64,000 bases of DNA from Arcobacter sp. CECT 8983 (GTDB taxonomy: Bacteria; Campylobacterota; Campylobacteria; Campylobacterales; Arcobacteraceae), in contig NZ_PDKF01000004.1 in the NCBI RefSeq assembly GCF_004118855.1, positions 62,001 to 126,000 on the forward strand, in the 5' to 3' direction. The notes beneath the pieces are model-generated. The model was given only the letters and a program-made list of their open reading frames with translations. It made no database searches and was not told where the DNA came from. Within the stretch, counting starts at the first letter, position 1. The number at the start of each line of letters is the position of its first letter. A program made the position numbers and the translations under genes. Positions 11,544 through 29,592 of the stretch are shown here, one piece after another.

Positions 11544-11555
11544 TTAAGTTTTCTA
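11530..11555. terminator. Bidirectional terminator between rimM and the SPOR-like gene
   Basis: Stem of nine bases (TAGAAAACT with AGTTTTCTA) around an eight-base loop, spanning the stop codons of both convergent genes. A/T flanks on both sides allow termination in either direction. Confidence 0.55.
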
Positions 11556-12740
11556 ATAATTACATCTTTTTTGATACTCTTCTTTTGTAAAATCAACTAA
11601 AAATGAATCCTTAAACCCATTGTCCATTAGAGCACTAAATACTTTGTTTCTTTCTACTGAAGATTCATATGGCCCAAAATAAATTTCTATTCTATTTTTA
11701 GAATCTCTACATAGTGAAATCTTTTTATCAAAGCTTTCTACTTTGTCTAAATATGATTTATGAAGTTCTCCTTTTATAATAGCTACATTAATAAATGGTA
11801 AGAAAAGATTTGAGTTCATAACATCATTAGCTTCTTCTTTTGTAGGAATAGCTATTGCTACTTCTTTTTTCTCTTCTTCATTAGTATTAGAGTTTGGTTC
11901 AATTATAACAGTAGTGTCTTTATCTTCATTTATTGCATTCTCTATTATTTGTTCAACGTTATTACTTGTTTCTACAACTTTTTTAACTTCTACTGGTTTT
12001 ATAATATTTTTTTGTTCTTCAAGTTCTTTAAATATCTTTGCTTTTTGTTCTTTAAACTCTTGTCTTATTTGTTCTTGCAGTTTTAAAAACTCTTCTTGCT
12101 CTTTTTTTATTGCCATTTGTCTTTCTTCAAGAAGTTGTTTCTCTTTCTCTAAAGCCTCTTTTTCTTTGGCAATTTTTTCTTCTGCTTTTCTTTTTTCTTC
12201 TTCAATTGCTTTTTGTTTAGCTTCTTCTTTTTTTCTTTCTTCTTCTTTTATTTTTCTTTCTTCTGCTTCTAACTGTTCTTTATTTAAAATCTCTGTTTTA
12301 GTTAACATTTTAAGTTTTTGGTTTAACTTATTTTTATCAATATCATCAATATTAATATCAACTTCAGGTTTTTTTTCTTCTTTTACTTGTTTAACAATAG
12401 GTTTTTGTACTTTTTCTTCTTCATCAAAGAAACCTGCTAGAAATAGAATAGTTCCTAAAGTTAAAATAACAGATAATGCAGCTATGACACCAATTAATAT
12501 TTTTAAAACCTTTGGTTTCTTTTTTTGAATTGGCTCTTCATCTAAATCTTCATTTTCAATGGTATTATCTTCATATTCTAGGTTCTCTTCGGTGTTTTGA
12601 ATATTCTCTTCTACAGGATTATCAGATGATGAGTTTTCTTCATTATCAACAAGTTGAAGTGTATCTTCTTCATTAGTTTGATTATTATCTTGTTCTAAAC
12701 CTAACTCTTCTATTATTTCTTGGTCTGTTTTCTCTGCCAT
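11553..12740 (-). CDS. Single-pass membrane coiled-coil protein with SPOR-like C-terminus
   Basis: 395 residues. Residues 1-70 are acidic and probably disordered in the cytoplasm. Residues 79-105 form one transmembrane helix. Residues about 135-255 are a long Glu/Lys coiled coil. The last 85 residues include IEIYFGPYESSVERNKVFSALMDNGF, which resembles a SPOR repeat (fold that binds denuded peptidoglycan glycans). The topology would put the coiled coil and SPOR-like domain in the periplasm. It is the last gene of a minus-strand operon with flgG, three bases after the preceding gene, which suggests an envelope role linked to the flagellum. No named family recognised; the SPOR call is tentative. 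Confidence 0.6.
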   Translation of the reverse strand: MAEKTDQEIIEELGLEQDNNQTNEEDTLQLVDNEENSSSDNPVEENIQNTEENLEYEDNTIENEDLDEEPIQKKKPKVLKILIGVIAALSVILTLGTILFLAGFFDEEEKVQKPIVKQVKEEKKPEVDINIDDIDKNKLNQKLKMLTKTEILNKEQLEAEERKIKEEERKKEEAKQKAIEEEKRKAEEKIAKEKEALEKEKQLLEERQMAIKKEQEEFLKLQEQIRQEFKEQKAKIFKELEEQKNIIKPVEVKKVVETSNNVEQIIENAINEDKDTTVIIEPNSNTNEEEKKEVAIAIPTKEEANDVMNSNLFLPFINVAIIKGELHKSYLDKVESFDKKISLCRDSKNRIEIYFGPYESSVERNKVFSALMDNGFKDSFLVDFTKEEYQKRCNY

Positions 12741-14139: not shown

Positions 14140-14508
14140 ATGAAAATTTTGATAGTGGATGATAGTTCTACAATGAGAAGAATCATTGGTAATGTTGTTA
14201 TGCAATTAGGTTTTGCAAAAGATGACTTCGATGAAGCAGAAGATGGTGTTAAAGCATGGAAACTTCTTACTGAAAGTCAGTATGATATTATTTTAACAGA
14301 CTGGAATATGCCTAATATGAATGGTTTAGATTTAGTTAAAAAAGTTAGATCAGAGGGAAATCACCAAAAAGTTCCAATTATTATGATTACTACTGAAGGT
14401 GGAAAAGGGGAAGTTATTACAGCACTAAAAGCTGGAGTAAATAACTATATTGTTAAACCATTTAATGCACAAGTTTTAAAAGAAAAACTTGATGGAGTTT
14501 TAAAATAA
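14140..14508 (+). CDS. cheY: Chemotaxis response regulator CheY
   Basis: 122 residues, a lone receiver domain. The acidic pocket is D7/D8, the phospho-acceptor is D54 in LTDWNMPNMNG, followed by the switch threonine in MITTEGG and the conserved lysine in YIVKPF. Phosphorylated by CheA, CheY-P binds the flagellar switch and reverses rotation. It is followed 34 bases later by a CheZ-type phosphatase, which makes a compact signalling-output and signal-termination pair. No CheA/CheW is nearby. Response regulator identity is certain; the chemotaxis role is inferred from sequence type and position. Confidence 0.93.
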   Translation: MKILIVDDSSTMRRIIGNVVMQLGFAKDDFDEAEDGVKAWKLLTESQYDIILTDWNMPNMNGLDLVKKVRSEGNHQKVPIIMITTEGGKGEVITALKAGVNNYIVKPFNAQVLKEKLDGVLK

Positions 14509-14542: not shown

Positions 14543-15715
14543 ATGAGTATGAGTCAAGAAGAAATTGAAGCTTTAATGAATGGTTTAGACTTTGAAGATG
14601 ATAGTTCAAAGGAAGAATCTACACCTGCAGAACAGCCAGAAATTTCTAAAGAAGTAGAACCAGAGCCTCAAGCAGAAGAGACGACAGAAAACTCAACGAT
14701 GTCAGAAGATGACATTAATGATTTGATTGCACAAACTGAAGAAATAGTTAATAATAAAGAAGAAGATACAGAAGAAGAAACAGTTGATGATATTTTAAAT
14801 AATATTGAAGAAACAGAACCAGTAGTTGATACAACACAAAATATTGATGATGTTTTAAAAGAAGTTGAATCAATTGAAGAGGTAAATGAACCTGAGGTTA
14901 CAGAAGATAGTATCCCTTCAGTAGATATTCCTACAATAGACGAAACAGATATCCCTTCAGTAGAAGAACCAACTAAAGAAGAATCAACTGATGAAAGTAT
15001 TTCAGAGGAACAAGCTTTTGAAGAAGATAATTTTGATGATATTCTTTCTTCAATTGATGGAATACAAGAAGAAGAGCCAAAAGAAGAAACTACTTCTGAA
15101 TCTGAAAAAGTGGATATCCCTTATGATATTCCAGCAAATGATCCTGATATAGAAGATATCGATTCAAAAATTAATAGTGGGGTTTTTCCATTGCCAGTAG
15201 AACAAGATAATAAAGTAGTAAATCAATTAAGTCAAGTTGCAAATGACTCAGAAGAGAAAGCAACAAAAATATTTGATGTATTAAGTAATATTTTAGACTA
15301 CAATAATGAAATTCAAAATGATGTTCAAGAGTTAGCAAACTTTAGTGACAAACAAACAGCAATGTTATCTTCATTAAATCAAAAGTTTCCTAATATAGAC
15401 GCTTTTAAACAAAATCTTGAACAAGCAGAGAAAATGGGAAATTTTATCTCTGATATTAATGATAAGATAAATAATGGAAATATGGAAATATTCCAAGCAA
15501 TGGAATTAATGCAATATCATGATATTAATAGACAAAAGATAGAAAGAGTAATGTCAGTTATTAGAAAATTAACTGTATACTTAAATAATCTTTTCGAAGA
15601 TGAAAATGATTATAAAGAGATTGCAGTAGCAAAACATATTCATGGAGATTCATCTACTGGTGATTTAATGGCAGAAGATGATTTAGATGCATTAATTGCA
15701 GAGTTTAATAAATAG
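14543..15715 (+). CDS. cheZ: CheZ-type CheY-P phosphatase with acidic linker and CheY-binding-like peptides
   Basis: 390 residues. The C-terminal helical part (about 225-355) contains QYHDINRQKIERVM, where D327 and Q331 match the D-x-x-x-Q catalytic pair of CheZ (D143/Q147 in E. coli), which dephosphorylates CheY-P. Residues 16-215 are a very acidic linker. The N-terminus MSQEEIEALMNGL (3-15) closely resembles the CheY-binding start of FliM (LSQ-x-EIDALL). MSEDDINDLIAQ (53-64) and the C-terminal MAEDDLDALIAEF (376-388) repeat the pattern; the latter is in the position of CheZ's own CheY-binding tail. Shorter DDIL/DDVL copies lie near 81, 101 and 164. Directly follows cheY. Confidence 0.78.
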   Translation: MSMSQEEIEALMNGLDFEDDSSKEESTPAEQPEISKEVEPEPQAEETTENSTMSEDDINDLIAQTEEIVNNKEEDTEEETVDDILNNIEETEPVVDTTQNIDDVLKEVESIEEVNEPEVTEDSIPSVDIPTIDETDIPSVEEPTKEESTDESISEEQAFEEDNFDDILSSIDGIQEEEPKEETTSESEKVDIPYDIPANDPDIEDIDSKINSGVFPLPVEQDNKVVNQLSQVANDSEEKATKIFDVLSNILDYNNEIQNDVQELANFSDKQTAMLSSLNQKFPNIDAFKQNLEQAEKMGNFISDINDKINNGNMEIFQAMELMQYHDINRQKIERVMSVIRKLTVYLNNLFEDENDYKEIAVAKHIHGDSSTGDLMAEDDLDALIAEFNK

Positions 15716-28680: not shown

Positions 28681-29592
28681 TTGGCGTCTGATTTATCAAG
28701 TTTTTTAAAAGATGAACTAGCTAATACTTTAGAGCAATTATTGTCTAAAAGCACAACTGTTGATTCAGTATCACCATTGGATGTTAATAGTTTAGATGAT
28801 TCTCAATGTATTGAGGTATCGGTTAAGTTTGAGTTTTCATCAATTAGTTCAACTTGGAAGTTTTATATACCTTCTCTTACTGCAACTAAATTTGAGTACT
28901 TTATGCTTGGTGGAATGGGTGACTTAAAAGAGCATATTGATGATGAAATTGCAGATGCAGTAAATGAAATAATTTCTAATGTATGTGGTAGTTTATGTAC
29001 TTCTGTAAATGCACAAGGTTTTCCTGATGTATCTTCAATTAAATCTGAAGTTTTAGATTTTTCAATAAAATCATGTTCAGATATTGAAGATAATGACAGA
29101 ACTTATAATTTAGATTTAGCATTAGATGGTGAGAAATTACCAATTTATTTATCTTTAGACGAAATAATTTTGCCTTATTTATCATCAATAACTGGATATG
29201 ATGACTCTTCTAACCATGAAGTAGTAACAGCTCCACAAAATGCATCTAGTAGTTCAAGTGTAGCTTCTACTCAACCTGCTATGAGTCCTAGTGTAAGTGC
29301 AATAAGTTCTTTATTATCAGAGGATTCAGCTGAAAACTTACAAATTTTATTTAATATCAAACTAAAATTAAGTGTAAGACTTGGAACTAAAAATTTCTTA
29401 TTAAAAGATATTTTAAGATGGGATATTGGTGAAATTATTGAGTTAGAACAAATGGTAAATGAGCCTTTAGATATTTTAGTAAATGGCGTTAAAATTGGTG
29501 AAGGTGAAGCTGTTATTGTTGAAGGTAAATTTGGTCTAAAAATAAAAAATATTGGCGATGGTTCAACAAAACTAAGTCAAATAGGAATATAA
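28681..29592 (+). CDS. fliY: Flagellar motor switch protein FliY (CheC-like plus SpoA)
   Basis: 303 residues. Residues 1-165 form a CheC/FliM-middle-like domain (GMGDLKEHIDDEIADAVNEIISNVCGSL). A Ser/Ala linker follows (about 180-210). The C-terminal SpoA domain runs NIKLKLSVRLGTKNFLLKDILRWDIGEIIELEQMVNEPLDILVNGVKIGEGEAVI. FliY shares the C ring with FliN and FliM in Campylobacterota. It lacks the FliM-type N-terminal CheY-binding peptide; such peptides instead occur in the CheZ-like protein at 14543-15715. TTG start. motA begins three bases after its stop. Confidence 0.85.
   Translation: MASDLSSFLKDELANTLEQLLSKSTTVDSVSPLDVNSLDDSQCIEVSVKFEFSSISSTWKFYIPSLTATKFEYFMLGGMGDLKEHIDDEIADAVNEIISNVCGSLCTSVNAQGFPDVSSIKSEVLDFSIKSCSDIEDNDRTYNLDLALDGEKLPIYLSLDEIILPYLSSITGYDDSSNHEVVTAPQNASSSSSVASTQPAMSPSVSAISSLLSEDSAENLQILFNIKLKLSVRLGTKNFLLKDILRWDIGEIIELEQMVNEPLDILVNGVKIGEGEAVIVEGKFGLKIKNIGDGSTKLSQIGI

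Follow-up and report, generated by a model that had tools for sequence, protein, structure and literature searches.

FliM-like peptides on the CheZ phosphatase of Campylobacterota and their repetition along the linker in Arcobacteraceae

Results

Genes and features of the cheY-cheZ locus

The DNA analyzed here, which we refer to as the window, is a stretch of 64,000 nucleotides from Arcobacter sp. CECT 8983. It contains a cheY gene that is directly followed by cheZ, after which come flagellar genes (Table 1). The relatives of the genome found in our searches are Arcobacteraceae, with named matches to Arcobacter, Malaciobacter, Poseidonibacter and Aliarcobacter. For Arcobacter, the pairing of cheY with cheZ within the main flagellar locus has previously been described as what remains of the F3 chemosensory class (PMC9321776). 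Another gene adjoining the flagellar genes (11553-12740, minus strand) encodes a protein whose N-terminal part is acidic; it has a single membrane stretch, a long charged region rich in E and K, and a SPOR-like end.

Table 1. Positions in the window of cheY, cheZ and the features predicted in the CheZ protein
Feature	Residues	Position	Strand	Evidence
cheY (CheYz), probable substrate and docking partner		14140..14508	+	FliM-binding residues kept
cheZ, Campylobacterota (F3-type) CheZ phosphatase	390 aa	14543..15715	+	ORF, family profiles, 166 orthologues
N-terminal FliM-like peptide SQEEIEALMNGL	4-15	14552..14587	+	FliM consensus match; 166/166 orthologues; AF2 helix 5-13
Linker copy 2, MSEDDINDLIAQT	53-65	14699..14737	+	Identity 0.85 (residues 55-65); AF2 helix 55-70
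Linker copy 3, EETVDDILNNI	78-88	14774..14806	+	Identity 0.68; AF2 helix 81-88
Linker copy 4, TQNIDDVLKEV	98-108	14834..14866	+	Identity 0.65; AF2 helix 101-111
Linker copy 5, EDNFDDILSSI	161-171	15023..15055	+	Identity 0.54; AF2 helix 164-169
CheZ core, long helical hairpin	216-362	15188..15628	+	AF2 helices 220-281 and 286-361, pLDDT mostly >85
Catalytic DxxxQ	D327 and Q331	15521..15535	+	Invariant in alignments, aligned with 1KMI
Putative C-terminal CheY-docking peptide MAEDDLDALIAEF	376-388	15668..15706	+	AF2 helix 378-389; E. coli counterpart

The window protein is related to CheZ and conserves the catalytic pair

Judged from its sequence, the protein encoded downstream of cheY is a CheZ phosphatase, as proposed by the first-pass annotation, which had noted the catalytic pair D327 and Q331. 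These two residues, which sit within QYHDINRQKIERV, are invariant in the 23 CheZ sequences of alignment A1 and in the 51 of alignment A2. A search of the PDB with the alignment profile retrieved E. coli CheZ (1KMI, E = 0.007), whose catalytic D and Q line up with those of the window protein. With the E. coli CheZ sequence alone as target, hhalign gave a weak local match that surrounds the catalytic helix (probability 14%, E = 0.002). In both matches D327 and Q331 fall on D143 and Q147, within the E. coli motif QDLTGQ. The orthologue of Helicobacter pylori is reported to dephosphorylate CheY-P, its catalytic residues being D189 and Q193 (PMC11237671).

The scores of the window protein with existing family models are below their cut-offs: 19.5 bits for the Pfam family CheZ (PF04344; cut-off 30.7), and 119 bits (E = 1.8e-34) for the NCBIfam family NF041271 (Phos_CheZ; cut-off 350). 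NF041271 matches 23 of the 23 aligned orthologues; its cut-off is narrow, and the model appears to be tuned to CheZ members with a short linker. When the AF2 model of the window protein was used in a structural search of the PDB, generic helical hairpins were retrieved at Z 9.5-11, which gives little information for a hairpin fold, and 1KMI was not among the best 50 matches listed.

A FliM-like peptide is present at the N-terminus of CheZ throughout Campylobacterota

The CheZ of the window starts with MSMSQEEIEALMNGL. The first-pass annotation had noticed the resemblance to the CheY-binding peptide of FliM, which we confirm, although it had left off the first two residues. Seven of the nine positions of SQEEIEALM are identical to those of the FliM consensus SQEEIDALL, and the window protein conforms to the pattern [ST]Q[ED][ED][IL]xAL[LM] near the protein start. 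The peptide is present in all 166 CheZ orthologues examined across Campylobacterota, which were gathered with a full-length query and whose matches mostly covered the core only. The pattern fits 164 of the 166; one orthologue (L172) has K for E, and another (L077) has the peptide but starts without a readable ATG. Outside Arcobacteraceae the N-terminus reads MTQEELDALM, versus MSMSQEEIEALMNGL inside the family, and the N-termini of FliM proteins of Campylobacterota (MADILSQEEIDALL) match the CheZ peptide.

A FliM-like N-terminus is absent from the five proteobacterial CheZ proteins that made up our comparison (E. coli, Proteus, Cupriavidus, Halomonas and Pantoea; a sixth, from Photobacterium, was not retrieved by our pattern). 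A phmmer search of the PDB with the peptide returned nothing useful; the PDB library has a limit of 20 residues, and the FliM peptides in complexes are shorter than that. No account of CheZ with such an N-terminus turned up in our literature search; this negative result carries little weight, since subscription papers mostly lay outside the search.

The C-terminal peptide belongs to CheZ in general

A FliM-like copy at the C-terminus had also been claimed, and is indeed present. D380 and L384 of this peptide are invariant in alignment A1, and its E. coli counterpart is QVDDLLDSLGF. The sequence QVDDLLxxLGF or a close variant, which has the same motif pattern, ends the CheZ proteins of E. coli, Proteus, Cupriavidus, Halomonas and Pantoea. 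By this likeness the C-terminal peptide is the ordinary CheY-docking helix of CheZ, and not a special feature of the window protein. The statement that FliM-like peptides occur at both ends is likewise true, but as a trait of this single protein it does not stand: the layout is phylum-wide.

The Arcobacteraceae linker contains conserved motif copies

Besides the terminal copies, a second full copy (MSEDDINDLIAQT) and weaker DDIL copies along the acidic linker had been pointed out. The second copy is conserved within the genus; the weaker ones are VDDIL (81), IDDVL (101) and FDDIL (164), and together the linker copies exceed chance. The motif that we counted is hydrophobic-x-x-hydrophobic-hydrophobic in acidic surroundings, a spacing seen in the peptides of FliM and of E. 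coli CheZ. Since the linker copies are spaced like QVDDLLDSLGF, this pattern also recovers the docking peptide of E. coli. Copies 3-5 are shorter and less FliM-like.

The linker of the window protein has four matches, versus 0.66 in shuffled sequences (P = 0.0018). In 89 distinct Arcobacteraceae linkers, a set in which related sequences are counted more than once, we found 240 motifs versus 45.5 expected (SD 6.3; maximum 64 in 500 composition-preserving shuffles). The 74 linkers of other Campylobacterota, which are also acidic, showed no enrichment of the motif (1 versus 2.9 expected). Residues D, E, S and T are abundant in the Arcobacteraceae linkers, whose median length is 133 aa (82-238 aa), versus about 48 aa in other Campylobacterota. 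A copy lies at residues 25-75 in 83 of the 89, and most of them carry two to five copies, with some members having zero or one.

Because related sequences are counted repeatedly in the motif enrichment, conservation was also examined. Within the genus, with an alignment that is itself anchored on the conserved segments, mean pairwise identity is 0.25 for the linker outside the motifs, versus the values of 0.54 to 0.85 given for the four copies in Table 1; for the CheZ core it is 0.80. In one relative (L109) the linker contains an additional, inserted copy, and another Arcobacteraceae genus has tandem copies of DDILAGIDGIVDD, which are versions of linker copy 5. These comparisons identify the string of linker copies as a peculiarity of Arcobacteraceae.

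The first-pass annotation had regarded the absence of the motifs from orthologues of related species as evidence against its proposal; they are conserved there, so the proposal survives this test. Moreover, the N-terminal peptide is retained in every orthologue examined beside a linker that changes fast, which indicates that it is under selection for some role.

Motif copies coincide with predicted helices

Outside the hairpin, the AF2 model of the window protein has seven helices, namely the six listed with the motif copies in Table 1 and one at residues 201-211. These helices are undocked and of low confidence, and the model predicts no contact for them with confidence (pTM 0.39). A second model was made for L242, the counterpart of L134, in which the copies are at positions 31, 54 and 77; it has helices at 30-38, 54-61 and 77-84, with further helices at both ends and one before the core. 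Nearly all low-confidence helices thus coincide with motifs in two AlphaFold models in which the motif positions differ. AF2 tends to give a helix on any conserved amphipathic stretch, and a helix does not equal binding; read in this way, the models show the motif copies as conserved, predicted helix-forming islands in disorder.

CheYz retains the scored FliM-binding residues, and FliM its own peptide

CheYz keeps D57, W58, T87, Y106, K109 and K119. In place of K91 of E. coli CheY, the alignment shows a lysine one position away in CheYz, at 92. A search of the genome for receiver domains gave 46 matches, of which the best 20 were scored for the FliM-binding residues; CheYz is the only one of these 20 that keeps the full set. 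All cheY genes located beside cheZ in the related loci examined keep the scored residues. It was from these residues that CheYz had earlier been proposed to be the FliM-binding CheY (PMC9321776).

As previously noted, the window encodes no FliM, and its FliY (at about 28681-29592) lacks a FliM-like peptide. The missing FliM is explained by where the window was cut: fliM is present on another contig (C3), and its product starts with MAEFLSQDEIDALLDIADAG, so that its own CheY-binding peptide is intact. Because the genome encodes a FliM with an intact peptide, this protein would be a competitor of CheZ for the same face of CheY.

A DNA search of the same genome with a degenerate peptide pattern gave nine places, versus one for the reversed-pattern control. 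They include FliM, CheZ and the C-terminus of a second CheZ-like protein; most of the others are probably chance matches, and one of the others falls in a lipoprotein-like protein. This second protein is short (about 121-127 aa; L002 1411-1794, contig C4 about 298575-298850) and has the sequence DLHRQKIERV and the C-terminal docking peptide SDDELEALIKSM, without an N-terminal FliM-like peptide. Its gene has a chemoreceptor gene on one side and, on the other, the gene of a truD-like pseudouridine synthase.

Discussion

The best reading of these comparisons is that CheZ bears additional CheY-P docking peptides, one throughout the phylum and several in Arcobacteraceae. The CheZ of H. pylori and Campylobacter (NF041271) is of the same family and has the same core, with the N-terminal MTQEELDALM and the C-terminal DDIEALI in orthologues of the Helicobacter and Campylobacter type, but the short linkers outside Arcobacteraceae lack extra copies, whereas the long linkers of Arcobacteraceae mostly have two to five. 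E. coli CheZ (PF04344, 1KMI) likewise has the DxxxQ in the second hairpin helix and a C-terminal CheY-docking helix; in contrast, its N-terminal helix is different, and it has neither a FliM-like N-terminus nor extra copies. FliM shares the N-terminal peptide, which in that protein is fused to the motor switch; in CheZ it is attached to the phosphatase, the enzyme by which the signal is removed.

We consider it probable that the window protein is a CheZ phosphatase with several CheY-P docking peptides; for the binding we rely on sequence and on conservation of the partner. In this mechanism, a dimeric helical hairpin would dephosphorylate CheYz-P by means of D327 and Q331, a step for which homology argues strongly. 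The C-terminal helix would dock on the alpha4-beta5-alpha5 face of CheY, as in E. coli, and the N-terminal FliM-like peptide would bind additional CheYz-P molecules at that face. In Arcobacteraceae, one to five amphipathic helices on the disordered acidic linker would likewise dock CheYz-P. The free arm would act as a multi-site catcher that raises local CheY-P around CheZ and competes with FliM. We put forward more tentatively that the FliM mimic on CheZ might compete with the motor for CheY-P and that, in Arcobacteraceae, up to seven peptides per chain might produce a steep, buffered switch-off, CheZ then being a regulated sink and not an enzyme only.

The observation of FliM-like peptides on CheZ is confirmed, and the interpretation first given to it is partly supported. 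Results obtained with H. pylori weaken the view that CheZ supplies its own active site through the N-terminal peptide: the CheZ of this species retains phosphatase function and wild-type biofilm behaviour when residues 1-39 are removed, while removal of its C-terminal region abolishes phosphatase function (PMC11237671). Hence, the N-terminal peptide is not essential there, and its essential role is unlikely to lie in supplying the catalytic site. Capture of CheY-P or competition with FliM is the more likely role; together with placement of CheZ, these are the roles left for the peptide.

Placement would mean that the N-terminal and linker peptides dock other receivers (CheV, the CheA receiver, ChePep-like proteins or CheY paralogues) instead of catching substrate. 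The many receiver domains in the genome would offer partners, catalysis is unharmed by the N-terminal deletion in H. pylori, the localisation of H. pylori CheZ depends on ChePep (PMC11237671; PMC7750401), and the N-terminal helix of CheZ is by itself enough for localisation at the pole in Azorhizobium caulinodans (PMC7750401). On the other hand, the other 19 top-scoring receivers are without the full set of FliM-binding residues. Furthermore, the abstract of a 2015 study reportedly mapped the localisation signal of H. pylori CheZ to the central domain. On balance, we consider placement of this kind rather unlikely.

It is less likely still that the peptides act within the CheZ molecule, folding onto the hairpin or competing with the C-terminal peptide of CheZ itself, so that the arm would be autoinhibitory or form oligomers. 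All copies do have the hydrophobic pattern of the C-terminal helix, a dimer would carry many of them, and helices that are undocked at low confidence could still make transient contacts; but the AF2 model has no confident contact, and the SQEE lead-in of the N-terminal copy, which is specific to FliM, would be left unexplained. Equally improbable, in our view, is that the linker copies arise as a by-product where an acidic arm of low complexity occasionally contains hydrophobic pairs, have no binding role, and leave the two terminal peptides as the only ones that matter. The composition of the linker, its widely varying length and the members with zero or one copy would fit such an origin, which is countered by the excess of motifs at equal composition, by the lack of any excess in the other acidic linkers of the phylum, by the conservation of copies 2-5 as islands, and by the inserted and tandem copies.

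The docking-peptide reading has consequences beyond Arcobacter. The function of the N-terminal region of H. pylori CheZ was called unknown in 2024 (PMC11237671), and a FliM-like peptide that is found phylum-wide gives this region a concrete and testable function, for which a strain with an N-terminal deletion is already available. Should CheY-P bind to the linker copies, the Arcobacteraceae would constitute a natural series of CheZ proteins in which the number of docking sites varies (up to seven), and the effect of valency and of competition with the motor on the chemotaxis signal could then be asked directly.

Two further observations concern related peptides elsewhere. Another Arcobacteraceae genus (L174, L175 and L176) encodes a short second CheZ of 161-163 aa with a minimal two-peptide form, having MTQEELDALMAGG at the start and DDELERLIAQ at the end. 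A lipoprotein-like protein (L315 1219-1866; contig C24 about 76398) contains the FliM-like sequence LSQEEINALVKQ, which is probably due to chance or has another role.
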